A stretch of 64,000 nucleotides of DNA from Leucobacter sp. 7(1) (GTDB lineage Bacteria > Actinomycetota > Actinomycetes > Actinomycetales > Microbacteriaceae). The notes beneath the pieces are model-generated. The model saw only the letters and a program-made list of their open reading frames with translations, had not been told where the DNA came from and did no database searches. Location of the stretch: contig NZ_FUID01000072.1 in the NCBI RefSeq assembly GCF_900163635.1, forward strand, positions 1 through 64,000, given 5' to 3'. Below, in pieces: positions 16,011 through 43,110 of the stretch; the first letter of the stretch is position 1; every line of letters starts with the position of its first letter. The translations under genes were made by a program, and so were the position numbers.

Positions 16011-16050
16011 CACCCAATCGAGGTGTACTCCATTCCCTTTTTGAGGCCCG
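16011..16050 (+). repeat. att-like repeat, copy 1 (hybrid-like)
   Basis: Begins CACCCAATCGAGGTGTACT and continues CCATTCC, identical over its first 19 bases to the comM junction at 43067. To the right of the presumed GA core it reads GAGGCCCGCGAG, which resembles comM (GAGGCACCCGAA) for about ten bases only. I read it as a decayed attR left by an earlier integration. It separates the exporter/ASCH region from the IS-bearing region. Confidence 0.6.
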
Positions 16051-16256
16051 CGAGATCACTGTTACACCCGACCTCATGCGGGAGGATGTAGCCGAGGCTT
16101 TTGCGGATTCTGTTGGGCGGGGGAGTCGAACTGACCTCGACCCCCATCACGCCGCGAATCTCGGTAGCGCGTTCTCCCGCACAAGACCGGGTCTGCTGCA
16201 CGAATAGGTGACAACTGACCTGGCTTGCCCGTGGGCAGGCTTGAGAGGATGTCGCT

Positions 16257-16550
16257 GTGCCCAAGCCCTACCCCCGCGAGTTCCGTGACGACGTTGTGCG
16301 CGTCGCCAGGAGCCGGGACCCGAAGACCCCGTTGGAGCAGATCGCGAAGGACTTCGGGATCCACCAGACCACGTTGAACTCGTGGATGCGCAAGGCCGAT
16401 GTCGAAGAGGGCGTGAAGCCCGGGATGACCAAGGACCAGAACGCCGAGCTGCGTGAACTGAAGCGGCGAAACCGGCTGCTGGAGCAAGAGGTCGAGGTCC
16501 TACGTCGGGCGGCTGCCTATCTGTCGCAGGCGAACCTGCCGGGAAAATGA
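16257..16550 (+). CDS. IS3-family transposase OrfA
   Basis: 97 residues with an N-terminal HTH (REFRDDVVRVARSRDPKTPL, IAKDFGIHQTTLNSW) and a C-terminal leucine zipper (NAELRELKRRNRLLEQEVEVL), the standard OrfA plan. GTG start at 16257 preceded by GAGAGGA. It overlaps orfB by ATGA at 16547, close to a short A-run where IS3 elements usually frameshift to make OrfAB. Intact, but its OrfB partner is interrupted, so the element cannot transpose on its own. Confidence 0.9.
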   Translation: MPKPYPREFRDDVVRVARSRDPKTPLEQIAKDFGIHQTTLNSWMRKADVEEGVKPGMTKDQNAELRELKRRNRLLEQEVEVLRRAAAYLSQANLPGK

Positions 16551-17161
16551 TGTACCCGCTCGTCCGCGAGCTGGCCGCTGACGGAATTCCCGTCACGGTG
16601 ACGTGCCGGGTGCTCAAGATCGCTCGCCAGCCCTACTACCGCTGGCTGCAGTCGCCCGTCACCGCCGCCGAACTCGTCGAGGCCTACCGCGCCAACGCAC
16701 TGTTCGACGCCCACCGCGACGACCCGGAGTTCGGCTACCGGTTCCTGGTCGATCAGGCCCGTGAAGCAGGTGAGTTGATGGCCGATCGGACCGCGTGGCG
16801 GATCTGCTCGGACCTGGGCTGGTGGAGCGCGTTCGGCAAGCCCAAGCGCGGCAAGGCGAAGAAGCCCGGTCCGCCTGTCCACGACGACCTGTGCACCGTG
16901 GTCGACGAGAAGGGCCGGGTCCGGCACGTCTTCGAAGCCGATGCTTCGAACGAGCTCTGGCTGACCGACATCACCGAGCACCACACCGGTGAGGGCAAGC
17001 TCTACGTCTGCGCGATCAAGGACGTCTACTCCAACCGGATCGTCGGCTACTCCATCAGCGACCGGATGAAGTCCCGGCTCGCGGTCGCGGCGCTCAACAA
17101 CGCAGTCGCCCGGCGCGGTGACGTCGCCGGTTGCATCGTGCACAGCGACCGAGGGTCGCAA
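16547..17161 (+). pseudogene. IS3-family transposase OrfB, 5' part (interrupted)
   Basis: Codes for about 205 residues of an rve/DDE integrase: HTH_21 region (YRANALFDAHRDDPEFGYRF), first catalytic Asp in WLTDITEH, second in VHSDRGSQ. The reading frame is cut by an IS30-family element right after the HSDRGSQ codons and runs on into foreign sequence. The missing part, with the catalytic Glu, lies at 18613-18903. Confidence 0.9.
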
Positions 17162-18612
17162 GCCGTATTCAATCGGTCGTCGCAACACCGACGAATCGGG
17201 GTATCGGATGAGCGTGTGGGACAGGCAGAAGCAGGTCCGGGCGTATCGGGGTCAGATCGTGTCGCCGGGGCGGCCGACGGTGGCGTGGCGTCAGGATCGG
17301 GTGCGGTTCTGGGTGGCGATCGCGGCGGGGAAGAAGACGCGCGAGGCCGGCGAAGCGGCGGGTGTTTCGGAGCCGGTCGCGCACCGATGGTTCCGAGACG
17401 CTGGTGGAGTGAACCCACGATTACCTCCCACCGTGTCAGGTCGATATCTGTCGCCGTCGGAGCGCGAGGATATCGCGCTGTGGCGCGCGCAAGGCGGTGG
17501 CGTGCGTGAGATCGCCGGACGATTGGGGCGTGCTCCGTCGACGATCTCGCGTGAGTTGCGGCGCAATGCGTCTACGCGCACGTATCGGCTCGAGTACAAG
17601 GCATCGACGGCGCAGTGGCATGCGGAGCGTCGTGCACGCAGGCCGAAGACCGCGAAGCTCGTCACCCACGATGCGCTGCGCACTTACGTCCAGGACAAGC
17701 TCAGCGGCAGCCTCTTCACTGCGGACGGCACACGGATCGGGCCGGCCGGACCTGCATGGGATGGGAAGAACAAACCGCATCGCGGGGATCGGGAGTGGGT
17801 GACGGCGTGGAGTCCACGGCAGATCGCCAAGCGGCTACCGATCGATTTCCCCGGCGATCCTTCGATGCGGATCTCGCACGAAGCGATCTATCAGGCCCTC
17901 TACGTCGAAGCGCGCGGAGGACTGGAGCGGCACCGATCCTGGCATCTACGTCGAGGACGCACCAAGCGCATGCCAAGGGCACGGACCAGGCAGCAAGCGT
18001 GGGCTCACGTCACCGAGGACACGGTGCTATCGAAGCGTCCGAAGGAGGCAACGGATCGCAAGACCGCTGGGCATTGGGAAGGAGACCTCATCATCGGGTT
18101 GAAGCGCTCCGCGATCGCCACGCTCGTGGACCGGACCACACGATTCGCGATACTCGTTCACCTTCCGCGACAGGCCGGATACGGGATCATCCCACCACGC
18201 AAGAACGGCCCCGCGCTGGCGGGGTATGGCGCGATCACGATGAAGAACGCCCTCACCGCGACGTTCTCCACCCTACCCGCGGCACTACGTCGTTCGCTGA
18301 CCTGGGACCGCGGCAAAGAGCTCTCTGCACACCGATTGCTGACGACTGAGATCGGGCTGCCGGTCTACTTCGCCGATCCGAAGAGCCCCTGGCAGCGCGG
18401 CAGCAACGAGCATCTCAACGGACTCCTACGCCAGTACTTCCCCAAGGGCACAGATCTCTCCCGGTGGAGCGCGGCGGAGATCACCGCTGTTGCGGACGCG
18501 ATCAACAACCGCCCGAGAGAGATCCTCGACTGGCGCACCCCCGCCGAGGCCTTCGAAGAGCTACTACGATCGATCTCACAAACCATCGTTGCGACGACCG
18601 ATTGAATACGGC
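17162..18612 (+). mobile_element. IS30-family insertion sequence (complete)
   Basis: 1451 bp with perfect 25-bp terminal inverted repeats at 17162-17186 and 18588-18612 (outer ends GCCGTATTCAATCGG). The target CAA is duplicated on both sides (17159-17161 and 18613-18615). Removing the element and one CAA rejoins the IS3 orfB frame exactly (HSDRGSQ-FRSRKF). The perfect repeats and intact transposase point to a recent insertion. Confidence 0.95.
17208..18605 (+). CDS. IS30-family transposase
   Basis: 465 residues. N-terminal HTH regions (SPSEREDIALWRAQGGGV, IAGRLGRAPSTISRELRRN) recognise the ends; the DDE catalytic core shows GHWEGDLIIG (first Asp), LTWDRGKELS (second Asp) and SPWQRGSNEHLNGLLRQYF (Glu), followed by PKGTDLS, all standard for IS30. 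ATG 17208 is the first start inside the element; an upstream in-frame ATG at 17118 lies in the IS3 gene and is discarded. The stop codon falls within the right inverted repeat. No damage visible. Confidence 0.93.
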   Translation: MSVWDRQKQVRAYRGQIVSPGRPTVAWRQDRVRFWVAIAAGKKTREAGEAAGVSEPVAHRWFRDAGGVNPRLPPTVSGRYLSPSEREDIALWRAQGGGVREIAGRLGRAPSTISRELRRNASTRTYRLEYKASTAQWHAERRARRPKTAKLVTHDALRTYVQDKLSGSLFTADGTRIGPAGPAWDGKNKPHRGDREWVTAWSPRQIAKRLPIDFPGDPSMRISHEAIYQALYVEARGGLERHRSWHLRRGRTKRMPRARTRQQAWAHVTEDTVLSKRPKEATDRKTAGHWEGDLIIGLKRSAIATLVDRTTRFAILVHLPRQAGYGIIPPRKNGPALAGYGAITMKNALTATFSTLPAALRRSLTWDRGKELSAHRLLTTEIGLPVYFADPKSPWQRGSNEHLNGLLRQYFPKGTDLSRWSAAEITAVADAINNRPREILDWRTPAEAFEELLRSISQTIVATTD

Positions 18613-18903
18613 CAATTTCGCAGCCGGAAATTCGTCCACGCGCTCAACCGTCACGGCATGGTCGGATCCATGGGCCGCGTCGGTGCAGCCGGGGACAACG
18701 CGGCCATGGAGTCGTTCTTCTCGCTGCTGCAGAAGAACGTACTGAACCGGCGCTCCTGGCAGACCCGCGAGGACCTCCGGATCGAGATCGTGACCTGGAT
18801 CGAGCGCACCTACCACCGACGCCGAAGGCAGGCCGCCCTCGGCCGATTGACCCCCATCGAATACGAGACCATCATGACCACGCCAGCCACCCAGGCTGCC
18901 TGA
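18613..18903 (+). pseudogene. IS3-family transposase OrfB, 3' part
   Basis: Continues the interrupted orfB from the second copy of the CAA codon: FRSRKFVHALNRHGM, then the catalytic Glu in NAAMESFFSLLQKNVL and the usual terminal region RRRRQAALGRLTPIEYE. About 96 residues to TGA at 18901. It has no start codon or promoter of its own. Confidence 0.9.
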
Positions 18904-19068
18904 CCCAACCTGTCACCCGATCGTGCAGCAGTCCCACCAACTAGCTACGGCATGTGACCTGTGGATAACTCCACAGTGACCCTCCGACCTACAGGTTGCT
19001 TAGCGCTTTCGTTAGCACTTTTCGCTGCCGCACTGAGCGGTGCAACTACGAACGCCACAACTGCTGGC

Positions 19069-20567
19069 TCAGCGTCGTTTCTTCCATCGAACCAGGACGA
19101 GCCCCCCAACCCAGATCGCCAGCATCACGACCGGGATTGGCGTGATGGGGAGCATGGTGATGGTGAGTGCTCCAAGAATCGCGATCAGAGGGTCGCTGAG
19201 TGCCCAGCCGATTTGCATGACGATGCTGAGGTCGCCTGCCGGTGTGTTGACGGGCGTGAGCAGGCTCGGAGGTAGCGGCCCTTTCAGTGCGCTACCCATG
19301 CGAAGTGCCAACGCGAGGACGCCGAGCGCGCCCACTCCGGTAAGCGCAACCCCAAGGGGCACACCGCTGGCGAATGCAGTGACGGTAGCGGACGCAGAGA
19401 GGACGGCCAGCAGAGCTATGAGCGGAAAGAGGGCGTGGAGGATCACGAGGTGTCGGTCGCTGATGCCGTATAGCGGGTAGTCGCCCGCGACGCTTGCGGC
19501 GTGCTGGAGCCCCTTGGTGAGCGGGCCAGCCGCGCCGTAGATCACGATTCCGGCCGTGCCCGCCAGAAGCGCGGCCGGTGTGCCAGATAGGAGTGAGAGC
19601 GTCATTAGGGCTCCCGCAGCGACGGTCGCAGTGATGGCTCCCAGTAATCGGCCGGGCGTTCGAGCCTGTCCAACCACATCGCGGAGGAAGAACGTCGCCC
19701 ATCGGTGCCTGCTCGGTCTGATGCCGCGGAGGTTGCGCCCGAGTGTGGTTCGGCCTCGTAGACGGCGGTCGCTGCGCGGAAGTCGAAGGAGAACGAGAAC
19801 GCTGTCGCTCGTTCCCACTGCGTCGCCTGCTTGCTGAGCTGGATCCCGGTGAGTCGGTCGAGCAGTGCCGGAATCATGAAGATGGATGCTGTGGCGAGCA
19901 CCGTCGTGCCCGTCAACGAAAGGACTCCTAATCCCGCGAGCGGGTAGGTCGCTCCCACCCACCCCCACGGCGTGAACGCGAGCACCTCCGGTACCGAAGG
20001 ACTTATCGCCGCAAGTACCAGCGCGGTCAGCGCGCTCGGGAGAGCAGCACGGGGGAAGACCTGCCCGACCAGCCACAGCGTCGCGGTCACGATACCGGTC
20101 GCGACGGCGGCAACAACGAAGACCATGACGCGCCAGAGTTGTGCGTGGCTTTCACTGAGCAGAGCCATTCCCACGAGCACTGCTCCGGCAGCGCATGCAG
20201 CGACGATGATCGTCGCGGAGCGGAGCACGGGCCGTCTGAGGGTGAGCGCGCGGCGGATGCTACTGGCGGTCAGCGCGTGAAGCAGAAACGGCGGCAAGAG
20301 TGCCGGGCCACGCTTTCGCCCCGCCATCAATGCCCCACCCCAGAGCGCTGCAATGATCATCGACACTGCGGCGGAAGCGTCCGCGGAGGCCAGCACTGCC
20401 AGCCCGTTCGGACTGCTCGCGAAAACCCACAGCGCGCGAACGATAGGCACGATGGCGATCACCGTAACCAATAGGAAGGCGTAGAACGCGTAGGCCTTGT
20501 CCCCACCGGAGTGTTCTCGCCGGGCTCCCCAGATGACCCATGCAGCCGAGAGCCGTGGGGTGCTCAT
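19069..20567 (-). pseudogene. ABC exporter membrane subunit, frameshifted
   Basis: A polytopic membrane protein of about 500 residues read in two frames. The first frame (ATG 20567) covers about 280 sensible residues with multiple helices (AYAFYAFLLVTVIAIVPIV, ALPSALTALVLAAISPSVP), then drifts into low-quality sequence and stops at 19605. From about 19740 a second frame continues with FLRDVVGQARTPGRLLG and further helices to the stop at 19069. A net +1 base near 19735, by a short G-run, would explain it (mutation or sequencing error). Its ATG overlaps the stop of the ATPase gene by ATGA, so it is the membrane partner. Family not recognised. Confidence 0.7.
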
Positions 20568-21337
20568 GATTGTGCCTCTAGCGTGATCGTGAGGTCAGCG
20601 GTGCGGTCCGCAAGGCTGCTGCTGTGCGTGGCGGCAATGATCGTCGCCCCGGCCGCTCGACGTTTCAGCATCGCCTGTGCGAGCGGTTCAACCCGGCCAG
20701 GGTCGAGACGTTGCTCGGGCTCGTCGAGGAGGAGCACGTCGAAGGGGCGAACGAACACCAGCGCAAGCCCGAACAACTGGGTCTGCCCGGAGGAGAGTTC
20801 ATGCGGATACCGGGCCCCCAATGCGATGAGACCGAACTCAGTGAGCACACGACGGGTCACCGCTTCCACTGATCCGGGGGTCTTCTCCCAGGTCGACGAC
20901 ACGAGCGCGACATGATCGAATACCGTCAGGTCAGACGCCATCGGCGGCAATCCGATCATGACCGCCACCCTGCGCCGGAACTCGGGATCACGTTCGTTCA
21001 CCGCCTGGCCACGAACCTGAACGGCGCCCGTTGTCGGTCTGATGCGCCCCGCCAAGGCGCGCAGGAGCGTCGTCTTACCTGACCCGTTCTCGCCGCGTAG
21101 CGCCACGACCTGGCCCGGCCCGGCCTGGAACGTCGTCGGTGGGAGCAGGAGCGTGTCGTTGGCCGTCACACTCACCGCTTCTACGCCAACGAGCGACGGC
21201 AACACACTTGCCTGGACGGCGGCGCTCTGGGGTCTTGGAGTGACAGGAAAAGAAGGATCGTTCGTCGGGAAATCTCTGTGGTGCACAATTCGCCTTTGGT
21301 CGCGTACGGGCATTCGGAACTGACCGATGCCACCCAC
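20564..21337 (-). CDS. ABC transporter ATP-binding protein
   Basis: Cytoplasmic ATPase of up to 257 residues. Walker A GENGSGKTT, a degenerate signature ELSSGQTQ, Walker B VLLLDEP and the switch His in ATHSS are all visible. It is a single-domain exporter-type ATPase paired with the overlapping (frameshifted) membrane gene. Start is uncertain: GTG 21337 or ATG 21313, neither with a ribosome-binding site; the conserved domain begins about 55 residues in. A small membrane-protein gene lies just upstream in the same direction. Substrate unknown. Confidence 0.8.
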   Translation of the reverse strand: MGGIGQFRMPVRDQRRIVHHRDFPTNDPSFPVTPRPQSAAVQASVLPSLVGVEAVSVTANDTLLLPPTTFQAGPGQVVALRGENGSGKTTLLRALAGRIRPTTGAVQVRGQAVNERDPEFRRRVAVMIGLPPMASDLTVFDHVALVSSTWEKTPGSVEAVTRRVLTEFGLIALGARYPHELSSGQTQLFGLALVFVRPFDVLLLDEPEQRLDPGRVEPLAQAMLKRRAAGATIIAATHSSSLADRTADLTITLEAQS

Positions 21338-21391
21338 GACAGCGCGACTAACGTTCAGCGCTCATGAGGGCGCGAGCGAGGATCGAGCTAC

Positions 21392-21697
21392 TTAGCCGTG
21401 GGTAGCGAGCAGGCCCGACGGTGCACGCGAGCGCACTGTCCCACGTGCACCTGGGGCGACGGGGCGGAGTAGTTGCCAAGCACCTAGGGTCGTTGAACGA
21501 ACAATCGACGGCTGAACACGCGGGAAGAACCGGTGAGACAGGGTGCGCGCGAATCGCAGGAAGAGCGGAACCGCAGCGACCAGCGCCAGCGCCAACAGTA
21601 CGAATGCGAACGGAAGCGGAACATCGGGAGTCAGCGGCAGCACGCCCAAATACACCAACAGCAAAGTGAGCTTCATCGACGCCCAACGCTTCTCCAC
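21392..21697 (-). CDS. Small hydrophobic protein upstream of ABC genes
   Basis: 101 residues with one or two membrane segments (LTLLLVYLGVLPLTPDV, FAFVLLALALVAAVPLF), then a basic, Pro/Arg-rich tail. GTG 21697 is chosen because GGAGGTGAG lies 8 bases before it; this is the best ribosome-binding site in the cluster. It is co-oriented with the ATPase gene 55 bases downstream. It could be an accessory subunit or the exported substrate of the transporter. No family recognised. Confidence 0.45.
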   Translation of the reverse strand: MEKRWASMKLTLLLVYLGVLPLTPDVPLPFAFVLLALALVAAVPLFLRFARTLSHRFFPRVQPSIVRSTTLGAWQLLRPVAPGARGTVRSRAPSGLLATHG

Positions 21698-22045
21698 AAC
21701 ACTCACCTCCAACCACCATCAGAATATCTGACCGCGACTGACAATCCAGATTCGTCGTGCCTCGCCAAGACCGTTGGCTAGACTGGCTGCACGAATTGGG
21801 TGTACTTTCCATTCCTTGCTGATAAGAACCGAAGCGCTACAACGACGAATGAGGCCCCGGATTCCGGGTGGTCGCGGGGCAACACGGAAGCGGCGTCGCT
21901 GATCGTGGTCGAGGTGAGCAAATCTCCGCGTGCGTCACTGGCGGTCGTCACTCTGATCGACATCGTCCTGTAGGCCTGGCGCGCTTGGGGTGCGGGACAC
22001 TGAAGGCGGAGAGAAGGTCTCCTCGACTCCGTTGCTCGTTGAGGG
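21698..22045. other. Intergenic region holding att-like copy 2
   Basis: 348 bases between the small membrane-protein gene and the convergently placed end of the XRE-cupin gene. Apart from the att-like repeat at 21790-21841 it contains no gene I can support. Confidence 0.6.
21790..21841 (+). repeat. att-like repeat, copy 2 (attP-like)
   Basis: Core GGGTGTACTTTCCATTCC, then TTGCTGATAAG, then AACCGAAGCGCTACA. It differs from copy 3 (26857-26909) at about five positions in 53. TGTA on the left and CTACA on the right, plus TTCC and GGAA/GAAC, make an imperfect dyad around a central GA, as expected of a large-serine-recombinase attP. Confidence 0.65.
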
Positions 22046-22639
22046 TCAGCGCTGGTGTTCGGTGTCGGTTGCGCGTACGTGGGCGCGTTGCCCTTGTCTG
22101 CCGACGAGGCTGAGGTATTCGACAGGGCCGGCGCTGGTGGCTCCGAACCAGTGCGGAGTGCGGGTGTCGAACTCGGCTGCTTCGCCTGCTTGAAGGAGCA
22201 GATCTTGATCGCCGAGCACGAGGCGCAGGGTGCCGTTGAGTACATAGGCCCAGTCGAAGCCCTCATGGGAATGCAGGTCTGGTACTGCATCGTCGCTGCC
22301 CGTGGGGAGGACGAATTTGAATGCCTGGATTCCTCCGGGGCGTCTGGTGAGCGGGATGACGATCGACCCATCGGCGCACGACATGGGCCGCAGATCGATA
22401 CGGGGGTTCGCGGTGCGGGGGGCATCGACGAGGGAGTCGAGGGTGACGCCGTAGTAGCGGGCCAGCGGCAGCAACTGTTCCAGGGTCGGTCGCCGCAGTC
22501 CGGCTTCGAGGCGCGAGAGGGTGCTCGTGGAGATGCCGGTCTCATCGGCAAGGGTCGACAGGGTGATGTCGCGGCGCAATCTGAGGTGCTTCAGGCGGAG
22601 CCCTACGGTGTCGAGGGTCTGGTCATCGTGTTCGCTCAT
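22046..22639 (-). CDS. XRE-family regulator with C-terminal cupin domain
   Basis: 197 residues. HTH_3 at about 12-66 (LRLRRDITLSTLADETGIS, STLSRLEAGLRRPTLEQLL); cupin_2 at about 115-185 (HSHEGFDWAYVLNGTLRL, QAGEAAEFDTRTPHWFG). ATG 22639 (MSEHDDQ) is the natural domain start. It is divergent from the flavoprotein-methyltransferase-exporter-DsbA operon, whose expression it most likely controls, with a TTGCC/GGCAA dyad between them. The cupin could sense a small molecule or metal; ligand unknown. Confidence 0.88.
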   Translation of the reverse strand: MSEHDDQTLDTVGLRLKHLRLRRDITLSTLADETGISTSTLSRLEAGLRRPTLEQLLPLARYYGVTLDSLVDAPRTANPRIDLRPMSCADGSIVIPLTRRPGGIQAFKFVLPTGSDDAVPDLHSHEGFDWAYVLNGTLRLVLGDQDLLLQAGEAAEFDTRTPHWFGATSAGPVEYLSLVGRQGQRAHVRATDTEHQR

Positions 22640-22648
22640 ACCCTGATT

Positions 22649-22662
22649 TTGCCATTCGGCAA
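22649..22662. promoter_or_regulatory. Inverted repeat in the divergent promoter region
   Basis: TTGCCATTCGGCAA is a perfect 5-4-5 dyad placed between the XRE-cupin gene and the flavoprotein operon, 10 bases from the regulator start. It is the best candidate operator for the regulator. Confidence 0.45.
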
Positions 22663-22733
22663 GGATGATTGCCAGGCGTAATCCTGTGGGCCATTCTGGT
22701 ACAGACATCACGAGTGCCCAGGAGGGGAATACC

Positions 22734-23693: not shown

Positions 23694-24310
23694 TGGCCGA
23701 GTTCGATAAGGACTACTGGGAGGCCCACTGGGATCCCGCTGCGTCGAGCGGTGAGCGCGAGCTCCTGGCCAACCCCTACCTGGCCACCGAGACTGCGTAC
23801 CTGCACCCGGGCGGGGCCTTGGATGCAGGGTGCGGGACGGGAGCGGAAGCGATCTGGCTCGCCGAGCAGGGCTGGCAGGTCACAGCCGCCGACATCTCCC
23901 CGACTGCACTGACAACCGCACAAGCCCGCGCAGCGACTACCGATGTGATCACGCCGATCGATTGGGTCGAGGCAGATCTGGCGCGGTGGGAACCAGAGCG
24001 CACGTGGGACCTTGTCGTCACGAGCTACGCCCATCCTGACATCGGGCAACTCCCGTTCTACCGGCGCATCGCTTCCTGGGTCGCCCCCGGCGGCACGCTC
24101 TTGATCGTCGGGCACCTCCACGATCACCAGCACGGTGATCATCACGGGCACCCGGAGAACGCGTCGGCAACGCTCGAAGCGATCACAAGCCTGTTCGATT
24201 CACCGCAGTGGCAGATCGACGCGGCATACGAACACGCGCGCACCGTGCACCCCGGCGGCGCCCCGGTGCAGCTGCGTGACGTCATCGTTCGCGCACACCG
24301 GACCGCCTAA
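23693..24310 (+). CDS. Class I SAM-dependent methyltransferase with His-rich loop
   Basis: 205 residues. The SAM-binding motif I is ALDAGCGTGAEAIWL (about 43-57), with ADIS as the acidic motif II. A His-rich insertion (GHLHDHQHGDHHGHPENA, about 143-160) could bind a metal or be a flexible loop. ATG 23693 overlaps the oxidoreductase stop. In this operon a thiol or small-molecule methylating role, masking a reactive group before export, is plausible; N-, O- or S-specificity cannot be read from sequence. Confidence 0.8.
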   Translation: MAEFDKDYWEAHWDPAASSGERELLANPYLATETAYLHPGGALDAGCGTGAEAIWLAEQGWQVTAADISPTALTTAQARAATTDVITPIDWVEADLARWEPERTWDLVVTSYAHPDIGQLPFYRRIASWVAPGGTLLIVGHLHDHQHGDHHGHPENASATLEAITSLFDSPQWQIDAAYEHARTVHPGGAPVQLRDVIVRAHRTA

Positions 24311-26028: not shown

Positions 26029-26055
26029 TCACCCGCTTCACGAAAGGAATCACTC

Positions 26056-35064: not shown

Positions 35065-35108
35065 TTGCTGCTCCGAACATTGTGGTTGTGGGTTGGTGTC
35101 TATGCTGG

Positions 35109-35140
35109 GAGCGGGACCGCCCGCCAAGGCGGCCCCGCTC
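35109..35140 (-). terminator. Strong hairpin between the 41-aa peptide gene and the helicase gene
   Basis: A 13-bp stem (GAGCGGGACCGCC pairing with GGCGGCCCCGCTC, one G-U on the transcript) with a 6-base loop. No U-tract follows, so it is more likely an attenuator or mRNA-processing/stability element than a full terminator; it would set kinase-peptide levels above helicase levels. Confidence 0.5.
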
Positions 35141-35164
35141 GGTGTCACACGAAGTCTCAGCCGC

Positions 35165-35290: not shown

Positions 35291-35327
35291 GTCATCACCA
35301 CCTTCCGTGGTCTCGCACGAGGAGCCA

Positions 35328-36875
35328 TCAGCCTGCCTCGCTCACCCAGTCCGCGATCCCGGCACGGATCGCTGGCGGCAGCGTGCGTACCGTGAAATCG
35401 GTGATTGACCAGCCAACCTGATCGCGGCCCACTGAGCGCAAACCTTCGATCGCCGCCATCGACATCTCCTCCAACTTGACGTCCTGCAGCACCGAGACCA
35501 GCACGTCTCGCACATGCCATCGGTTGTGCTCGGGGCCGAGGACAGCGAGGGCAGCGACCGCCATGCGCAGGACGCTGGAGTCACTGACGACGTCGACGGT
35601 GCGGCGCATGAAGTTCGCCAGCACGTCGCAGTACTCGAACGAGAATCCGGTCCGTTTGACGTAGTCCGTGAACCGTTCGAACAAGCGACGGAACGCGCCA
35701 CGGTCCCGGTTCCAGAGGAACTCGACGGACGACGACGTGCACCAGGGCAGCACGCGAGTAAGCGCCTTCATGTCATCGTCGTCCGACTCATCGAGAAGCG
35801 TCGCCCACTCAAACATCTCGATCAGGTCCGCCGGGGTGGTCGAAGGGCTGAGCATCCTGTCGCGGAGTCGTTCAGCGGTCTGTTCGCGCGACTCCCAGGC
35901 ATCATGCTCCTGGCGCGTGCCCAGGGTCCTCTCGAGCGCCTCAAGGAATTCCGCTACCGAGCTGTATCGGCTCGCGGGACTGTTCGCCGTGGCACGCTCG
36001 ACGACGGGCCGCAGAGGTCCTGCTGGCATCTCGGTGTTCACCGGGTACTCCTGGGTCACCAGCTCCTGGAGCATCTTGCCCAGGCTGTAGACATCCGAAC
36101 GGTGGTCAGCGCTACGTGCTCGGGTCCACTGCTCCGGTGCCGCGTACACCCATGAGCCCATGCCAGCGCGAAGCGTCGAGGTCAACGGTGTCGTTTCCCG
36201 CTCAGCTTCGACTGCCAGTCCGAAATCGGACACCGCCCATTCACCGCTCTCTAGCCGGAGCACGTTCGCGGGCTTCAGATCACGGTGATAGACCCCGTTG
36301 CCATGAATGTATGCCAGGCCGGCGCAGATCTGACGCATGATGTCCACGATCAACGGCGGGTTGCCGTCGACCTTTTCGATAAAATCAGCCAGACTGCCCT
36401 GCGCCAGGGGCATCGCGTACCAGACATCCTGACTGTCGGTTTCGCCCTGTGCGATCACCGAAATCACATTCGGGTGCCTGAGGCCTTCAAGCAGCCGCAG
36501 CTCCCTTGTGAACCGACTGATCACCTCAGGATCTACCGCCGCGCTCTCACGTAACACCTTGATCGCAACGACATCTCCGGTCTTGCGGTCGGTCGCGCGG
36601 AACACGTCCGCGAAGCCGCCGCTACCGATCGCGGGGAGCTCCAGAATGAACCGGCCACCCAGAGTCCTGACCGTCAGATCAGTCTTCGGCCGCCCGGCCT
36701 TCTTCTGCCGCAACCCCGAGCCGTTCCATGCCTTGATGACGTCCAGATCCCAGATGGGCCCCTGGGCGATCTCTCCGACAGCATCAGGGAAGTCGGGTCG
36801 CTGCCGCAATGCGGCGATGCGTTGCGGCGTGACGCCCAGCTCGTCTGCGACTTCACTCAATCCGCCCAGGCGCAC
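35328..36875 (-). CDS. Serine/threonine protein kinase with N-terminal excisionase-like HTH
   Basis: 515 residues. Residues about 1-55 form an AlpA/MerR-like DNA-binding helix-turn-helix (GLSEVADELGVTPQRIAAL, then PIWDLDVIKAW). The kinase domain (about 75-340) has the glycine loop GSGGFADVF, Lys106, catalytic HRDLKPANVL (Asp199) and DFG (Asp217). A helical C-terminal domain of about 170 residues is unassigned. No membrane helix or PASTA repeats, so it is cytosolic, unlike PknB. GTG 36875 is preferred because GGAGG touches the ATG at 36884 directly. It heads the operon with the basic peptide, helicase and zinc-ribbon gene. HTH-kinase fusions are rare; I infer DNA-linked sensing or autoregulation. 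Confidence 0.87.
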   Translation of the reverse strand: MRLGGLSEVADELGVTPQRIAALRQRPDFPDAVGEIAQGPIWDLDVIKAWNGSGLRQKKAGRPKTDLTVRTLGGRFILELPAIGSGGFADVFRATDRKTGDVVAIKVLRESAAVDPEVISRFTRELRLLEGLRHPNVISVIAQGETDSQDVWYAMPLAQGSLADFIEKVDGNPPLIVDIMRQICAGLAYIHGNGVYHRDLKPANVLRLESGEWAVSDFGLAVEAERETTPLTSTLRAGMGSWVYAAPEQWTRARSADHRSDVYSLGKMLQELVTQEYPVNTEMPAGPLRPVVERATANSPASRYSSVAEFLEALERTLGTRQEHDAWESREQTAERLRDRMLSPSTTPADLIEMFEWATLLDESDDDDMKALTRVLPWCTSSSVEFLWNRDRGAFRRLFERFTDYVKRTGFSFEYCDVLANFMRRTVDVVSDSSVLRMAVAALAVLGPEHNRWHVRDVLVSVLQDVKLEEMSMAAIEGLRSVGRDQVGWSITDFTVRTLPPAIRAGIADWVSEAG

Positions 36876-36898
36876 GGCTACCATCCTCCGCGATAATT

Positions 36899-36950
36899 AT
36901 TGTCCATAAGACAATCATACCATGGAAATGGTTGATGTGATGGAAACCAT
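36899..36950. promoter_or_regulatory. AT-rich promoter region with two dyads before the kinase operon
   Basis: ATTGTC-CATAA-GACAAT (36899-36915) and ATGGTT-N11-AACCAT (36928-36950) are both perfect inverted repeats in an AT-rich stretch unlike its surroundings. They lie just upstream of the kinase start and after the end of the nuclease gene. Likely operators; the kinase's own HTH is a candidate to bind them. Confidence 0.5.
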
Positions 36951-37058
36951 TAACTTTTACTGGTTGGGAAGCCATCTATAGTTCTAGGCAGGCACTTCGC
37001 GATGCCGAGCCGCGCCTACACGGCACCCCCCCACTAGCCGTCGGCATCGCCTGTGCGC

Positions 37059-38522
37059 TCAGGCCACCGACGCTGAGGGCTTGTTGTCGGATCGTGCGTC
37101 AATCAGGACGACGGATGGGTTCTTGTCTAGATCGAGCTTTCGCAGGATCGCACGCACGCGACTCTCTTCGGCCTCGCTGTAGAAGACGATGACCTTCAGA
37201 GATTTGTTCGTCTGGTTCGCTGCCTCGTAGACCTCGACTTGGTTGCGCAGGTTCTGTTCGAGCTTCTTGTTGCTGGCGAGTTTGAACTCGATCAGAGATT
37301 TGTCGCCTGAGCCGTAGCTGACTTTGAAGTCGACTGGTCCGCGTCCGTTGTTCGGTTCGCGGTTCACATCGAAGTCGGAGAGTCCCCAGATCAGTCCGAA
37401 GAATATCTGGACTTCGCTCTCGCGGGCGAAACCTGTTCCTTTTCGGTTGATCAGCCGGTATCCATCCTGTGCTTCGACGTAGTGCTTGAAGATGAGCACA
37501 CGTTCGCACGCTTCGTCATAGCTGTTCCAGCCGGTTTCGTAGAACTTCGACTTCGCTGATAGTTCGCGGACGGCCTCTCGAAGCGTGGTGTCGAAGATCC
37601 CGAGTATCTCGTCGCGCTTCTCTTTGCTGATCGCGGAGGCTTGATCGCCGCGATCCTCCTGGATCGCGATGTAGCGGTCGAGTAGCTCGGGAAAATTGCG
37701 GAGCGTTGCTGCGGCTGCTGCCTTGAGATCGGAATCTTTGGGCTTGTCTCCGAGCTGGCCGCGGAAGTAGCGGTTGATGCGGTCGCGCGCGACGTCGTTG
37801 TCTACAGACTCGGTGATCTGGTGATATTGGCTCACCATGTCCTTGTAGTTGATCCAGTTCTCATCGTGGGTCAGCAGGTCCAGTGGCGTCAGTAAGACGT
37901 AGTCGTCTCGAAGCTTCGGGAGGAAGTAGTTGCGAGACTCCCAGCTTTGCGTGTCGTAGTTGAACGCGACGCGTTTGACGTGAAATGTCGTGCAGTGCCT
38001 CGCGTCGAGGTGTTTCTTGGCGAACGTCTCGGTGTAGTCGAGTAGGAACTCTTTGATGAGGTTGGTCGTGAAGTCGCTGATGCTGTCGCGCCCGGTCCGT
38101 GGCTGGAGGAGGCTGAGCTTCTCCAGATGGGTTCCCTTGGTGACGTTCTCGTCGCCGAAGTTGCGCAGAACCGAGTTGAGCGAGTCATGAAGGGCGCGCG
38201 CGAAGAGGGGGCCCGGGCCTCGGCCTTCGTTACCGAACTCGCAATATCCGAGCCAGTTCTGCTTCACTTCGGAGAACTGGTAGAGGTCCTTGATTGTTGC
38301 CTTGGTCTGTGGTGTCTGCGACAGGCGCTTCAAGTACCGCAGGTACTCGACCACGCGCTCGTGGAGTTCCTGATACGGCTTCTTCTTGCTGTTGAAGAGG
38401 AGGAACGGGTCGACGAACAGGGGTAGGTCGGTTACGAGGTTGACATCGAACGCGCCGTAGCGGTCCAGGACGCTTCGGTCGACGTTGAAGTAGTCCGAGA
38501 AGAAGATCTTCGTTTGTGCCAC
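37059..38522 (-). CDS. PD-(D/E)XK-like nuclease, otherwise unrecognised
   Basis: 487 residues, cytosolic, family not recognised. Near the C-terminus GPVDFK (Asp398) and LIEFK (Glu412-x-Lys414) are separated by 14 residues, with a Glu-rich helix before (ESEVQIFFGLIWG), which is the layout of a PD-(D/E)XK nuclease core; LKVIVFYSE is the following strand. The N-terminal 350 residues are mostly helical. GTG 38522 has AGGAG nine bases upstream. Third gene of a leftward operon behind an XRE-ImmA protease and an unknown protein, ending just before the kinase promoter. A restriction-type effector is the natural guess. Confidence 0.65.
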   Translation of the reverse strand: MAQTKIFFSDYFNVDRSVLDRYGAFDVNLVTDLPLFVDPFLLFNSKKKPYQELHERVVEYLRYLKRLSQTPQTKATIKDLYQFSEVKQNWLGYCEFGNEGRGPGPLFARALHDSLNSVLRNFGDENVTKGTHLEKLSLLQPRTGRDSISDFTTNLIKEFLLDYTETFAKKHLDARHCTTFHVKRVAFNYDTQSWESRNYFLPKLRDDYVLLTPLDLLTHDENWINYKDMVSQYHQITESVDNDVARDRINRYFRGQLGDKPKDSDLKAAAAATLRNFPELLDRYIAIQEDRGDQASAISKEKRDEILGIFDTTLREAVRELSAKSKFYETGWNSYDEACERVLIFKHYVEAQDGYRLINRKGTGFARESEVQIFFGLIWGLSDFDVNREPNNGRGPVDFKVSYGSGDKSLIEFKLASNKKLEQNLRNQVEVYEAANQTNKSLKVIVFYSEAEESRVRAILRKLDLDKNPSVVLIDARSDNKPSASVA

Positions 38523-38556
38523 GGCGTATCACGCTCCTGAGTACGGGCCAACTGTT

Positions 38557-39588
38557 TCATGCCGCTGTGGGCACGAGGCCCGCGATGTGGCTGCGGATCT
38601 CTGACGGTGGGACTTGTAGATAGTCGGATGCTTGTCGGGTTGCGGACTTCACCTCGGTGTTAAAGAGCACCTTGCGCAGAACCTGGGACGTCTCCGGAAC
38701 TATCCCGCCGGGCTCCGCCTTGCGGTAGCCCATCTCAGACAGCGTCACGCAGGTGCTGCGATACATCCACTCGGTGAGGAGTTCCAGCTCGCGCAGGCGG
38801 TGAGTCATTGCCATGGCAGAGACGCGCCAGTACGATCGTGCGGCAAGGATGCGATCTAACGTGGCGTTTCGCATGGACTGTGACAAGACGCCATCCGCGG
38901 GCATGAGTAGCGCGGCAGCGAACCTATTGGCTTCGGCTTCCTTGGCTCGACCTTGGGGACGGTCCTGACCGCCATCGCTATGCAGCACAAGGTGACCGAG
39001 CTCATGAGCGGCGTCGAAGCGCTGTCGCTCACCGGTCTTGTCAGTGCTCAGGAAGATGTAGGGGACTTCGTCTCGATAGAAAGAGAAGGCGTCAATCTCT
39101 CTGCACTCGGCGGCGATGTTGAAGACGCGCACGCCGTGTGCTTCGAGAAGGTGCACCATGTTTGAGATCGGTTTGACACCAAGCCCCCAACGAGTGCGGA
39201 TCACGTCGGCCGCGGTCTCGGGGTCGAGCTTGTCCAGCGTCGGAACTGTCGGGTTCGGCAGCACGAACTTGCTGTGTATCCAGTCGGCGAACTCCAGCGT
39301 GATGGTGGCCGCGGCGAGAGCGGCATCGCGCTTCGCAGCGGTCGTCTTGCTCAGCTTCCGGAAGCTCACCGTCTCCGGAGGGAGGACGTCGATCGACTCT
39401 CGTTGGAAAAACTCTGGAAGTACGCTGAGGTGACCAGCGAGAGCATCGAGAGACTCCTGCGGCGGGTGGTACTCGTCGTTCTCGTAGCTCGACAGCGTTC
39501 GCGTTGAAATGCCACTGATCTCCGAGAGCTTCGTCAGGGTGAGCCCCCGGCGCTGACGCGCAAGTCGGAGTCGTTCCGGGACGAACAT
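38557..39588 (-). CDS. XRE HTH + ImmA/IrrE metallopeptidase
   Basis: 343 residues. XRE HTH at about 4-55 (RLRLARQRRGLTLTKLSEISG, TLSSYENDE) joined to a COG2856-type zinc peptidase with HELGH at 195-199 and a downstream Glu segment (KEAEANRFAAALLMP). Such proteins act as repressors that are inactivated or as proteases cleaving partner repressors on DNA damage or phage infection. ATG 39588 is chosen for AGAGAGGTG nine bases upstream; ATG 39597 is possible. It sits between the unknown gene and the nuclease gene, consistent with control of a toxic effector. Confidence 0.88.
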   Translation of the reverse strand: MFVPERLRLARQRRGLTLTKLSEISGISTRTLSSYENDEYHPPQESLDALAGHLSVLPEFFQRESIDVLPPETVSFRKLSKTTAAKRDAALAAATITLEFADWIHSKFVLPNPTVPTLDKLDPETAADVIRTRWGLGVKPISNMVHLLEAHGVRVFNIAAECREIDAFSFYRDEVPYIFLSTDKTGERQRFDAAHELGHLVLHSDGGQDRPQGRAKEAEANRFAAALLMPADGVLSQSMRNATLDRILAARSYWRVSAMAMTHRLRELELLTEWMYRSTCVTLSEMGYRKAEPGGIVPETSQVLRKVLFNTEVKSATRQASDYLQVPPSEIRSHIAGLVPTAA

Positions 39589-39651
39589 GGGTGTCATCAC
39601 CTCTCTTCGTATTTTTCAGGTGTGTGAGCGCCACCCGAAGATGGCTGGGGG

Positions 39652-40323
39652 TCAACGGGGCTGAACAGGAATATCGAAGCCGTCGCCCTCGTCGTCGCTG
39701 AACATGGATGTATCTGAGGGGGCGTTCAGCTGGGGGAGCACGATTCGCGGACCCCACTTGTCAACTCGCCCGTCTGAGCGGTACCCGGCAGGCTGAGACA
39801 GTTCAAGCAGGAGGCCCGTCATGGTCAGCTCGTGCAGCAACATCCATAGCGGAGCTGTTCTCGCGAGTTCTTGGAATTGTGGTTTCGCCGGCGGCAGCTC
39901 GGGGATGTTGAGCATGCCATCAGTGCTGATCGGGAAGCTCGCTGTGATCGCACCGTGGGTTGCCGGACCTTTCGGCCGCGTGATGGGTCCACGTTTCGGG
40001 TCGCCCCCAATACTGCCCACATGATCTGCCGACGCAACGACGATGGCCATCTTTCCCTCGGGGTGAACTGTGCGAATCTGCTGATCCACACTCACCGGCT
40101 CCCAACCCGTTCGGCTAAGTCGAAGGCGCAACTGCTCGCTCGTGTCTTGATACAAGTCGTTGGACTGGGCGCCAGGGTTCGCCGCACGTGTTCGGTTCAG
40201 AGCCTTGCTTAGTCCCGGCCTCGCCACCTGATGGAGAAGCTCGACGCTCAGGCCGAACTCGGCAAGAAGCGCATCGGCGTCGCCGTCATGCGGCTCCGGG
40301 ACTGCTCGTAGTAGCGTCACCAT
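39652..40323 (-). CDS. Unrecognised protein, first gene of ImmA-nuclease operon
   Basis: 223 residues, no recognised domain, signal or membrane helix. Pro-rich, with an acidic C-terminus (SDDEGDGFDIPVQPR). GGAGG lies seven bases before ATG 40323. It starts the leftward operon with the XRE-ImmA and nuclease genes. As in many three-gene immunity units, it could be a sensor or the substrate of the peptidase. No function can be read. Confidence 0.6.
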   Translation of the reverse strand: MVTLLRAVPEPHDGDADALLAEFGLSVELLHQVARPGLSKALNRTRAANPGAQSNDLYQDTSEQLRLRLSRTGWEPVSVDQQIRTVHPEGKMAIVVASADHVGSIGGDPKRGPITRPKGPATHGAITASFPISTDGMLNIPELPPAKPQFQELARTAPLWMLLHELTMTGLLLELSQPAGYRSDGRVDKWGPRIVLPQLNAPSDTSMFSDDEGDGFDIPVQPR

Positions 40324-40358
40324 CGGGTACCTCCAACTCTCTGTTGCTCATGATCCTC

Positions 40359-40370
40359 CCTCAAATGAGG
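40359..40370. promoter_or_regulatory. Inverted repeat upstream of the ImmA-nuclease operon
   Basis: CCTCAAATGAGG, 5-bp arms with a 2-base spacer, about 35 bases before the first start codon of the operon. A candidate operator for the XRE domain encoded within the operon. Confidence 0.35.
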
Positions 40371-40526
40371 AAGAAAAACACGCGACGCGCCGAGTGGGTT
40401 CGCAAAGTCGCCATTTCCGACCGGCCATCAACGGCTTTTTCAGCTCAGCGGATTGGTGCGAGAGGCAGGCGTGAGCGCAGCGTTGAGCTATCGCTAGAAC
40501 CATGAGGGGCGATCTACATTTGAATG

Positions 40527-40682
40527 ATGGAGGAGCAAGACGGCGATTTGGCCTACCGCACGTGCGCTGAGTGCGGCCGTGATCTTCCGCCTGAGCCGTT
40601 CAAAGCCGATGGGCATCTCCGGATCGGTTTCGTGTGTGCCGAGCATGGTGTGCATTCGGTCGTGAGCCCGTTCGAAGACTGA
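40527..40682 (+). CDS. Small CxxC protein
   Basis: 51 residues from ATG 40527 (or the ATG directly before it at 40524) to TGA at 40682. It contains TCAECGRDLPPEPF and FVCAEHGVHS, which could form a small zinc ribbon (CxxC...C-x2-H). It lies just before another small gene and the serine recombinase in the same direction. Possibly an accessory of the integration module. Family not recognised. Confidence 0.45.
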   Translation: MEEQDGDLAYRTCAECGRDLPPEPFKADGHLRIGFVCAEHGVHSVVSPFED

Positions 40683-40724
40683 CGGCACCGCGTGTATGTC
40701 GGTGGTCGCGCCGACGATCGTCGT

Positions 40725-41003
40725 ATGGACTACTTGTATACGAAGAACGGTCGGCCGCTGAAGCGTCGCGGCGATGACCTGTTCAGTTCCTCGGGCACCC
40801 ACGTCGGTCGTATCCGTGGCGAGAAGGTCTTCGATTCCACCGGCCGGTACGCAGGAACCGTGGTGGGCGACCGGGTGATCTACCGCAGCACTCACTCGGC
40901 CTCGATCAGCGGCCCGTTCGCGCAGCGTGCGAGCGCGGGGTTCGGGCGTGCGAACCGTGCCGGGACGGGAGCGTGGGGTGACGAACCACCTTTCCCTGAC
41001 TAG
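40725..41003 (+). CDS. Small beta-repeat protein of the integration module
   Basis: 92 residues from ATG 40725 (an in-frame GTG at 40692 is upstream). Three short repeats of the form G-x-x-V/L-F-x-x-x-G-x-x-V/A-G (LFSSSGTHVGRI, VFDSTGRYAGTV) suggest a small beta structure; the tail is Gly/Arg-rich. It ends 6 bases before the recombinase start, so it is likely in the same transcript. Such a position fits a recombination directionality factor, but no evidence beyond position exists. Confidence 0.5.
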   Translation: MDYLYTKNGRPLKRRGDDLFSSSGTHVGRIRGEKVFDSTGRYAGTVVGDRVIYRSTHSASISGPFAQRASAGFGRANRAGTGAWGDEPPFPD

Positions 41004-41009
41004 GCATCT

Positions 41010-42626
41010 ATGACGACACTCCTCCTCCCGCACGCACAGGCGAAGCCTCCACCGTTTCGGTGGACAGGACCCGAGGTGCCGTTACCCGGCACCCGGCCGG
41101 TGTTTCTGTATCTGCGGCTTTCGCGTGCACACGGTGACGGGCGGGATGCGATTGAGCGGCAACGTCTCGACCTGACACGCAAGCTCGCAGCAGAGGGCGG
41201 GTGGACAGTGATGGGCGAGTACGTCGACCGAGACTCCGCCAGCGCGTACGCGCGGACGGAGCGTGCGGGGTGGCGCGCGCTGAATGCAGGGATCGCGTCG
41301 GGCCGGGTGCGGGCGGTGGCGTTCTGGAAACTCGACCGCACCTTGCGGATCGCCTCGCGCTGCTTGGAATGGGTGACCTCATGCCAACAGCAGGGTGTGA
41401 CCTTGCTGTCGCACCAGGACTCCACGGATGAACTGAACAGCGTCACCGCCGCCGCGAAACTCTCGACCGGGGTGAAGGCGTTGTTGGCGGAGGCTGAGAC
41501 GGACACGATGAGTGAGCGTCAGCGTGCCGCGAAACGCCACGCCGCGCAGGCGGGGTTCATCAACGGCGGACGTCGCCCTTTCGGCTGGCAACCCGGACAA
41601 CGAGTCACCGATAGTGCTGGACGGACGGGTCGGCGTCTGGAGCCTCACCCGGTCGAACACCTGGCGTTGAAGGATGCTGTCGCCCTCGTGCTCGCCGGGG
41701 CCGGCCTCCGTGAAGTCGCTGTGCACTGGCAGACACGCTACGGGATCACCGGCACCGAGGGCGGGCTCGTGAGCGATTAGAAGGTGCGTGCCGCGTTGAT
41801 CTCGCCCCGGATGGTCGGCTACCGGCAACACCAGTTGCCGCCACATCGTCGAGGCGTCAGTGTCGATCCGCTCGACCACATCGCCCGAACCCCGGACGGG
41901 GAGCCAGTAATCGGCCAGGAACCAGTGTGCGATCTGGCAACCTGGCACCGCATTCAAGCAGCCCTGCGATCACGCAGCACCGGCGCACGGAATGGGTGGG
42001 GGACACGCGCGTGGTTGCTCACAGGGCTACTGAGGTGCCCGTGCGGAAGCCCTCTGGCCGGTGTCGCGCAGCCACAAAAGCCGGACGCCGACGGCCACCG
42101 GGTGGTCCGATACGTGTATCGATGCAAAGCGAACCGCCGCCACGGGGCAGGCACCTGCACGGGCGGGGTCTCGATCACTGCGCCTGTTGCGGAGCAGTTC
42201 GTCGTGGACTGGTTGTTCGAGTTCTTCTCCAGCGACCGCCTTGATGCTCACAACAGAAAGGTGGAGAGCGCGAACGTCGCGGCGGTTGGCCGCGTCGACG
42301 CAGAGCTGACGGTTGCCGGTGAGGAGCTCGATGCCCTTCACGGCAGGGCGGCTTCACTGACTGTCGGTAGTGGGCTTCACCAGATCGTCACCGGGATGAT
42401 CGCCCGCGTGCAGGAGGGCATCGCGAATCTGAACGATGAACGTGTTGCTCTCACGGTCGAGCACCCGGCACCGCTCACGCATGAGCGACTCGTCGCGGTG
42501 TGGACGACGCTGAACAACGAGTCACGCCGGACGGTACTGCGTCAGCTCATCCAGCACATCGATCTCGCGCCGGGTCGCGGACGTCCCGCTGAACGGCTCA
42601 ACATCGTTCTCCGCTCTGGACAGTGA
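41010..42626 (+). pseudogene. Large serine recombinase (integrase), amber-interrupted
   Basis: A 538-codon frame with one in-frame TAG at 41778-41780 (codon 257). The first part is a resolvase catalytic domain: Ser38 in YLRLSR, ERQRLDL, and the RDSASAY and FWKLDR segments. After the stop the same frame continues with a recombinase domain (SPRMVGYR), a zinc ribbon (LLRCPCGS, YRCKANRRHGAGTC) and a coiled coil. This is the phage/ICE-type large serine integrase. It lies 440 bases from the att junction in comM, which it presumably made. A single point mutation separates it from an intact gene, so inactivation is recent, or the TAG is read through. Confidence 0.88.
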
Positions 42627-42980
42627 TGCCCGCGCGGCGGCGACGCGCCGCTCCGCTCGCGCGAGCTGCCGTTTCAATCTCGCCACCTCGTCGAGCGCGC
42701 GTCGGTGCTCAATCTGCGCTTCTCGGAAGCGCCGGGCCCGCTCCCGAATGTCGTTCACAGGAACTGAACCGGTGATTCGGTAGCGGTGACCGCAGTCGGC
42801 GCACGGCCAGGTTGGAGCGTCCGGGGCATGGAGGGTTGCGTGTTGCCGGTAACGAATCGTGTGACCGCACGCGAGCGATATTTCCCACTCCCGCATCGGT
42901 GACTCGATGGTGGCGGCTGACTCGATAAGGGTCCGCAACTGTTCGACAGCGGAGGGCGTCAACGGCGGGATCGTGTGCAT
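42522..42980 (-). CDS. Zinc-ribbon/coiled-coil small protein
   Basis: 152 residues from ATG 42980 (GGAG seven bases upstream; ATG 42986 also possible). It has paired cysteines (SLACGHTIRYRQH, WPCADCGHRYRIT) like a zinc ribbon, then a long basic coiled coil (about 95-145) rich in Arg/Ala/Glu. It overlaps the 3' end of the recombinase gene by 105 bases on the other strand and lies between it and the att junction. Could be an accessory or directionality factor; coding quality is fair but not certain. Confidence 0.45.
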   Translation of the reverse strand: MHTIPPLTPSAVEQLRTLIESAATIESPMREWEISLACGHTIRYRQHATLHAPDAPTWPCADCGHRYRITGSVPVNDIRERARRFREAQIEHRRALDEVARLKRQLARAERRVAAARASLSRAENDVEPFSGTSATRREIDVLDELTQYRPA

Positions 42981-43065
42981 ATTCATGCTCCAATCTGACC
43001 GCGCCGGACCAGGATTCGCCCGCCGACCAGCCCGGTTCTGAGCCCGCTGGCGGCTACACTGGGAG

Positions 43066-43110
43066 CACCCAATCGAGGTGTACTTTCCATTCCTTGCTGA
43101 GGCACCCGAA
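43066..43110 (+). repeat. att junction (attR-like) in comM, copy 5
   Basis: CACCCAATCGAGGTGTACTT, then TCCATTCCTTGCTGA, then GGCACCCGAA. The left side matches att-like copies 1-3; the right side is comM coding sequence. The switch falls at the GA dinucleotide shared by the attP-like copies (GCTGATAGG) and by the expected comM sequence (GACGAGGCACC). I read this as the attR made by a serine integrase. Confidence 0.7.

Follow-up and report, generated by a model that had tools for sequence, protein, structure and literature searches.

Organization of the comM locus

The DNA analysed here, hereafter the window, comprises the first 64,000 nucleotides of contig NZ_FUID01000072.1 of Leucobacter sp. 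7(1) (assembly GCF_900163635.1) and contains the 3′ part of comM, preceded by gene modules that are separated by copies of a sequence resembling an integrase attachment (att) site. Read in order, it holds the right part of an integrative and conjugative element (ICE) that we call ICE1, one module with a left half-site of type X1 (M1), three modules with a left half-site of type X2 (M2, M3 and M4, the last encoding a serine integrase, LSR2) and comM (Table 1). We put at roughly 0.78 the probability that this is an ICE followed by tandem, partly integrase-less cassettes in comM, assembled by serine integrases.

Re-reading of the window confirmed all five att-like copies of the initial annotation, in one orientation, the fourth without its P arm. 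The P arm (GGTGTASTTTCCATTCCTTGCT) is the exact 22-nt half-site, with one variable position, that stands before the dinucleotide GA in copies 2, 3 and 5. The 24-mer GGTGTASTTTCCATTCCTTGCTGA occurs exactly at 21799, 26867 and 43077, and a search allowing up to three mismatches returned the same three window matches only (0.00 expected, 100 shuffles). The P arm of copy 1 (16022) has several changes, is missed by the 24-mer pattern and is slightly decayed; copy 4 (30917) keeps its upstream stretch and right half (30927-30946). To the right of GA the sequence is X1 in copy 1, X2 in copies 2-4 and comM in copy 5. Every module ends on its right side in P, and the left ends are P'1, X1 or X2. When copy 5 was searched against the whole genome, strong matches were confined to this contig (copy 5 itself plus three further places), and the next match had E 0.96. 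The copies matched no Rfam family at gathering scores.

The comM gene is split between two contigs of the genome: from 43090 on, the window matches PF01078 over positions 111-203, and contig C47 matches positions 1-117. The predicted left-hand part of comM and its attL were thus both found on C47. On C47 the 5′ part of comM reaches GTGCTTTTCCTCGAC and at GA switches to a half-site ending in GGAAAGTGCACC (P'1), the inverted partner of the P arm, beside the gene for the integrase LSR1. The proposed dyad symmetry about GA is thus real, as both attL and attR switch sequence there. When the two flanks are joined at GA, a 521-residue frame results (start codon assumed), and joining gave an open frame VLFLD/EAxEF (the slash marks the junction) in all seven relatives with both flanks available (G041, G057, G138, G171, G190, G191 and G233; 300 residues upstream examined). 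Because the half-sites are inverted, the two comM halves lie beside them and the joined frame is open, copy 5, which had been reported to switch into comM, is on sequence grounds attR, attL lies on C47 and GA is the core dinucleotide; by the same reasoning the insertion point is the GA within the comM codons for VLFLD/EAPEF. An empty site was sought in relatives, as had been proposed, and 18 of 28 comM loci from other genomes matched the attB expression with the core codons intact, while the remaining 10 did not match it.

The two kinds of site differ as would be expected of attP and attB. The distance between the core and a GGTG-N-TTTCC motif is 10 nt in P (GGTGTACTTTCC) and 5 nt in the comM B half (GGTGCTTTTCC); a further TTCC stands at 5 nt in P, so the shift in register rests on the longer motif. 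This shift resembles the A118/LI integrase model, in the portion of PMC3783163 available to us, and would here be a putative binding register. From their sequences the comM sites appear to follow the rule that attP is longer than attB and has its zinc-ribbon motif about 5 bp further out. We considered whether X1 mimics the comM B' half, since both begin GAGGC, and set this aside: judged by eye, 21-24 nt separate the outer CACC of X1 from the core, a register near that of P' (19-22 nt) and not 5 nt inward.

Other changes at this place in comM were seen. In G167 (L107:7220-18793) the same GA core of comM is occupied by a different serine-integrase element, whose half-sites are others and whose integrase is 22-27% identical to LSR2. 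In G157 (L106, reverse strand, about position 19273 of the reversed stretch) comM is apparently frameshifted beside the same attB place, and no element was seen there.

The two integrases and their distribution

The left end of ICE1 and its own integrase lie at attL on C47. LSR1, a large serine recombinase (LSR), is uninterrupted, has 547 residues and starts 45 nt past the core; its Pfam domains (PF00239, PF07508 and PF13408) have the architecture of a large serine integrase. The involvement of serine recombinases, proposed by the initial annotation, is borne out by LSR1 at attL, LSR2 in M4 and junctions of the serine-integrase type. The next gene on C47 is 91% identical to the type IV secretion system coupling protein of G138; alongside these two genes, neither relaxase nor VirB4 was identified among the ten proteins scanned. 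P'1 stands beside LSR1 in 10 genomes, the window's own and G041, G066, G138, G171, G187, G188, G190, G191 and G233; in G171 the LSR1 alignment covers residues 1-342 only. Among solved structures, one distinct, distant integrase sequence was matched (9iu2, E 1.2e-9). The reading of the window as a series of modules holds for M1-M4, which with ICE1 do form a composite island of cargo modules, whereas positions 1-16042 are the right end of an ICE. By Pfam this right part encodes CtaG-like, heavy-metal P-type ATPase, CopC/CopD, MFS and MerR genes; a copper-type cluster at 4601-12428 contains CtaG, the heavy-metal P-type ATPase, DUF1775 and CopC/CopD.

LSR2 is about 50% identical to LSR1, and the LSR2 of G041 matched only PF00239 and PF13408 at E ≤ 0.001. 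LSR2-like genes are found in seven genomes: they are uninterrupted in G041, G057, G171, G189 and G233, lack the N-terminal part in G187 and contain an in-frame TAG in the window. That TAG (41778-41780) is directly followed by an in-frame GTG. Small open reading frames (ORFs) directly before LSR2 (window 40692-41003; L028:3926-4204) had no Pfam match and are candidates for a directionality factor; the one in G041 is 85% identical to that in G171. A phage or plasmid origin was considered and set aside for the two pairings searched, as LSR1 had no match in 50,697 phage records at E 1e-30 and LSR2 none in 72,556 plasmid records at E 1e-40.

A single-module element elsewhere, which had been suggested as a check, exists in G057: a lone 15.3-kb LSR2 element with B/X2 at one end and P/comM at the other. 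From these ends it follows, on the sequence evidence, that X2 is the P' arm of the second integrase, LSR2.

Tallies of relatives include the window's own genome. Copy 3 was matched in 4 of 150 family genomes at E ≤ 0.001 and LSR1 in 5 of 150 at E ≤ 1e-60. The pattern GGTGTASTTTCCATNNNNNGMTGA occurs in 7 of 398 genomes, the X2 pattern in 4 of 398 and the strict X1 pattern in 1 of 396 genomes of the order, the window's own. A search for the exact 20-mer in one genome per species (84,980 species) gave 12 stretches; 11 come from 8 genomes labelled actinobacterial, and the twelfth is in a metagenome-assembled genome (MAG) labelled WOR-3, where the rest of the site is not present.

ICE1 stands alone in G138 (about 68 kb) and G191 (about 47 kb). 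Whole arrays lie on one contig each in G041 (ICE1, a 7.7-kb X1 module with a type I restriction-modification (R-M) system, an 8.0-kb X2 module with LSR2, comM) and in G171 and G233 (ICE1, an X2 module with LSR2 of 13.4 and 18.8 kb, respectively, comM). M. rhizomatis (G190) has ICE1, a 3.85-kb X2 module without an LSR and comM; the cargo of that module (L095:2057-5488) consists of a SecA-like ATPase plus a protein of 181 residues that belongs to no Pfam family. In Arthrobacter sp. 260 (G188), whose sole LSR match is LSR1, the array is split over three contigs: the first is the ICE1 left end, the second has a P/X1 Hachiman/RmrA module followed by a P/X1 type I R-M module, and the third carries IetA/IetS and PDC-S56 genes, a P/X1 DUF4062 module and comM.

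Modules without an integrase

Thirteen non-ICE modules have both ends on one contig (M1-M4 of the window, two each in G041 and G188, and one each in G171, G187, G190, G233 and G057). LSR2 is present in six of them, once with a stop and once truncated, and seven have no LSR1- or LSR2-like gene; among the bounded X1 modules none of four has an LSR. The view that each module was brought in by a recombinase that it still carries fails in the window itself, where three of the four modules after the ICE, M1-M3, lack such a gene. Among the ORFs scanned in the seven LSR-less modules, which are part of all their ORFs, the only other recombinase-type match was the insertion sequence (IS) transposase of M1, and no conjugation families were found.

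Defence-type matches are frequent in the cargo: type I R-M in modules of G041 and G188; HamA/HamB, RmrA, IetA/IetS and PDC-S56 in G188 (the module with the last two was available without its left end); RmrA/RmrT and the PD-T4-6-like kinase in M4 of the window; SIR2-like and LmuB-like proteins in M2 of G041; and Dsr1-like and OLD-like proteins in G057. No defence-type match was obtained for M2 and M3 of the window, the SecA module or an alcohol dehydrogenase module in G189, and the ABC ATPase of M1 had generic ATPase matches only.

The strongest alternative is that the LSR-less modules are decayed elements, strict cis-mobilizable elements (CIMEs) once of the LSR2 type or of some third type, so that the array would be the fossil of ordinary successive integrations. 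The damage to LSR2 in two of the seven genomes that have it (the window and G187) and the decay of copies 1 and 4 speak for such a history, as does the description of CIMEs as decayed ICEs or integrative and mobilizable elements (IMEs) in the part of PMC7563491 that treats them. We nevertheless regard it as unlikely, because all four bounded X1 modules lack an LSR while their compact cargo is whole (type I R-M, Hachiman), and because no LSR or ICE relic was seen in X1 modules by tblastn with LSR1 and LSR2, the only queries used. The X1 type I R-M module, moreover, is the same in G041 and G188 (83.9% identity over 6530 bp, X1 end included); these genomes carry the labels Microbacteriaceae and Arthrobacter, respectively, and hence represent two families.

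Exchange of neighbours at the core

Modules common to several genomes match up to the GA core and then diverge. Copy 1 of the window and G190 are 91.8% identical over 2839 bp, a match that ends at core −8 and is followed by X1 in one and X2 in the other. Copy 5 and G189 agree at 86.1% over 2140 bp, ending at +4, beyond which lie comM and X1. G041 behaves in the same way: its match to G138 (99.1% over 333 bp) runs to +6, where G041 continues with X1 and G138 with comM, and its match to G189 (88.2% over 2138 bp) runs to +4, where G041 continues with comM and G189 with X1. The few nucleotides that match past the core are explained by X1 and comM both beginning GAGGC. At a left end, G041 and G187 share 408 bp at 98.5%; the match starts within the P arm, and the DNA ahead of it is unrelated. 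The internal copies, which had been taken for att scars of the comM site, are instead chimeric P/P' junctions between modules.

Homologous recombination between the repeated right ends (about 40 nt plus flanking homology) could also exchange neighbours, and the sequence common to right ends upstream of the core would supply the homology. It is an improbable explanation, since several joins end 4-8 nt from the GA core, the G041/G187 match begins in the P arm with unrelated DNA before it, and the lone element of G057 needs an integrase reaction at the same GA.

An outward −10-like box

A −10-like hexamer facing outward lies about 20 nt before the P arm. The right ends listed number 23; five of them were dropped as at least 65% identical to one that was kept, which leaves 18 whose upstream sequence is distinct. 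TANNNT is found 17-26 nt before the P arm in 17 of the 18 (shuffled mean 2.0) and TANAMT in 12 (shuffled mean 0.28); TANAMT, the only form so checked, is in none of the 18 at each of seven shifted positions. The hexamer and the distance window were picked after the sequences had been viewed, which makes the contrast descriptive. The box prompted the idea that the copies are a repeated promoter or leader, for example of a competence regulon, but this is hardly credible and was discarded, as comM is split at the copy with its other half beside an inverted half-site and an integrase gene, junctions switch at the core and no Rfam family was matched.

In predicted leader folding, run from an assumed transcription start and without shuffled controls, circular forms expose the int1 ribosome site more than integrated ones do in 7 of 7 ICEs; the rise is large at one extreme (0.01 to 0.63) and slight at the other (0.33 to 0.39, 0.92 to 0.97). 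Beside P'1, an inverted repeat CCTCC...GGAGG spans the int1 ribosome site (L012:1953-2000).

Table 1. Features of the window and the basis of their assignment
Feature	Position	Strand	Description
ICE1 right part	1..16042		13200-16036 91.8% identical to M. rhizomatis ICE right end; Pfam
−10-like box TAAAAT, copy 1	16000..16005	+	outward promoter candidate
Copy 1	16022..16068	+	decayed P arm, core GA at 16043, X1 half-site
Module M1 (X1 type)	16043..21820		IS-like transposase genes, ATP-binding cassette (ABC) transporter; no LSR
−10-like box, copy 2	21779..21784	+	outward promoter candidate
Copy 2	21799..21842	+	P arm 21799-21820, core GA 21821-21822, X2 half-site
Module M2 (X2 type)	21821..26888		pyridine-nucleotide oxidoreductase, methyltransferase, MFS exporter, DsbA-like; no LSR
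−10-like box, copy 3	26846..26851	+	outward promoter candidate
Copy 3	26867..26910	+	P arm 26867-26888, core GA 26889-26890, X2 half-site
Module M3 (X2 type)	26889..30926		ABC transporter, two-component system; no LSR
Copy 4	30917..30946	+	P arm missing, core GA at 30927, X2 half-site kept
Module M4 (X2 type)	30927..43098		RmrA/RmrT-like, PD-T4-6-like kinase, PbeA-like helicase, DUF4238, LSR2
LSR2 gene	41010..42626	+	in-frame TAG 41778-41780; 89.0% identical to uninterrupted LSR2 of G041
−10-like box TACACT, copy 5	43055..43060	+	outward promoter candidate
Copy 5 (attR)	43077..43122	+	P arm 43077-43098, core GA 43099-43100, then comM
comM 3′ part	43099..43716	+	PF01078 match, coding starts at GA 43099

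Discussion

Our results suggest that ICE1, which encodes LSR1, would have entered comM at GA and that modules then came to lie in tandem behind its right end, still inside comM, each running from its own left half-site (X1 or X2) to the common right half-site P with an outward −10-like box before it. The sequence itself shows both attachment ends (attL and attR), the core dinucleotide GA, the unoccupied comM site, the role of X2 as P' arm of LSR2, the LSR-less modules and the change of neighbours at the core between genomes. How cassettes are added we infer: LSR1, LSR2 or both would act in trans at the cores to circularise, insert and shuffle modules. Possible routes are recombination of ICE1 attP with the attL of a resident element, or of a module attP with attR, both of which would yield P/P' couplings, and recombination of attL with the distal attR could release the whole train. 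In a circular ICE the outward promoter would serve int1, and in the integrated state it would transcribe the module that follows.

Several observations weigh against assembly of this kind. The P/P' couplings need reactions that are inefficient in the serine integrases studied, according to the relevant part of PMC3783163, and no circle or movement has been observed; the 20,208-bp contig of G052 had no exact end overlap of 16-200 nt that would mark a free circular form. No −35 box was seen by eye at the right ends, and neither a B/X1 junction nor a free-standing X1 element was seen with the strict X1 pattern in the 396 genomes of the order. Contigs C47 and C88 are linked by logic and not by assembly, and ICE1-like backbone is also present on C75, C55 and C36 of the same genome (G000, L163-L165), where the further gene copies suggest more than one such ICE. 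The single comM attachment site of the initial annotation has the comM halves at attL and attR in its favour, but comM is intact in two of 12 copy-bearing genomes checked: G189, a MAG, and G052, which has P/X2 on a 20.2-kb contig and no LSR1-like match at E 1e-25.

Among the literature matches listed, with subscription journals and preprints outside the coverage, we recognised no account of arrays built by serine integrases in the comM of actinobacteria. Serine recombinases and composite arrays, of cassettes with and without a recombinase, are also features of the staphylococcal cassette chromosome (SCC), which differs in its ccr genes and rlmH site. The array described here has comM as its target and is set apart from SCC by description, not by sequence. 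Integrons, with a tyrosine integrase and attC cassettes, differ in that the enzymes here are serine integrases. A state-dependent int promoter, the idea that we propose for int1, is found in ICEclc. ICEKp1 likewise involves integrase transcription that depends on the integrated or circular state, in the part of PMC13023037 concerned; here such dependence is only predicted, and the box is also on integrase-less modules.

By description, the closest known arrangements are CIME accretion (PMC7563491) and the Dehalococcoides ssrA islands (PMC3146451), each as presented in the portion of the paper available. Streptococcal CIMEs, ICEs and IMEs (PMC7563491, same portion) likewise form tandem elements at one target with integrase-less members flanked by att sites, and accretion with an ICE is the means of movement proposed for CIMEs there. 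Seven of our 13 bounded modules keep att sites and, in the ORFs scanned, have neither integrase nor conjugation genes, as CIMEs do. Unlike the streptococcal elements, ours involve two serine integrases, three kinds of left half-site and one common right half-site, a site internal to comM, attP-type couplings and an outward −10-like box on the right ends. The Dehalococcoides islands share with them a serine recombinase and the tandem stacking of many islands at a single site, where some lack integration genes, but differ in the ssrA target, a 20-bp direct repeat and an integration module of several genes, and the available portion of PMC3146451, in which SCC is mentioned as well, reports no exchangeable family of left half-sites such as is seen here. 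Acinetobacter comM islands, including AbaR, resemble ours in target, in defence cargo and in the possible gain to an island from disabling comM, and use Tn7-like or other enzymes, as far as the part of PMC11472951 at hand describes them; here serine integrases act at a GA core. Among the Pfam-scanned ORFs of the window there were no Tn7-like transposition genes, although no dedicated search was made, and the junctions are of the serine-integrase type. Our best reading is that the array is a hitherto undescribed variant of CIME/SCC-type accretion.

A wider and more tentative proposal, which we think somewhat doubtful, is that this is a serine-integrase counterpart of the integron. An ICE-borne integrase would gather integrase-less cassettes, often for anti-phage defence, at comM; through the one common half-site with its outward promoter, transcription would pass from each cassette into its successor and, once the ICE is circular, into the integrase gene; in that circular form P and P'1 would also pair within the transcript and so expose the ribosome-binding site of int1; and loss of comM may hinder removal of the array by transformation.

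For enzymology, the arrays raise the question of how P/P' couplings arise when the serine integrases studied favour attP × attB. Genome engineering in actinobacteria could make use of the integrases and of their codon-constrained target. For the biology of these organisms, the arrangement could give defence systems a defined way to travel between actinobacteria as separate units, one whose half-sites are exact, whose crossover falls at a dinucleotide and whose target lies in conserved comM codons.

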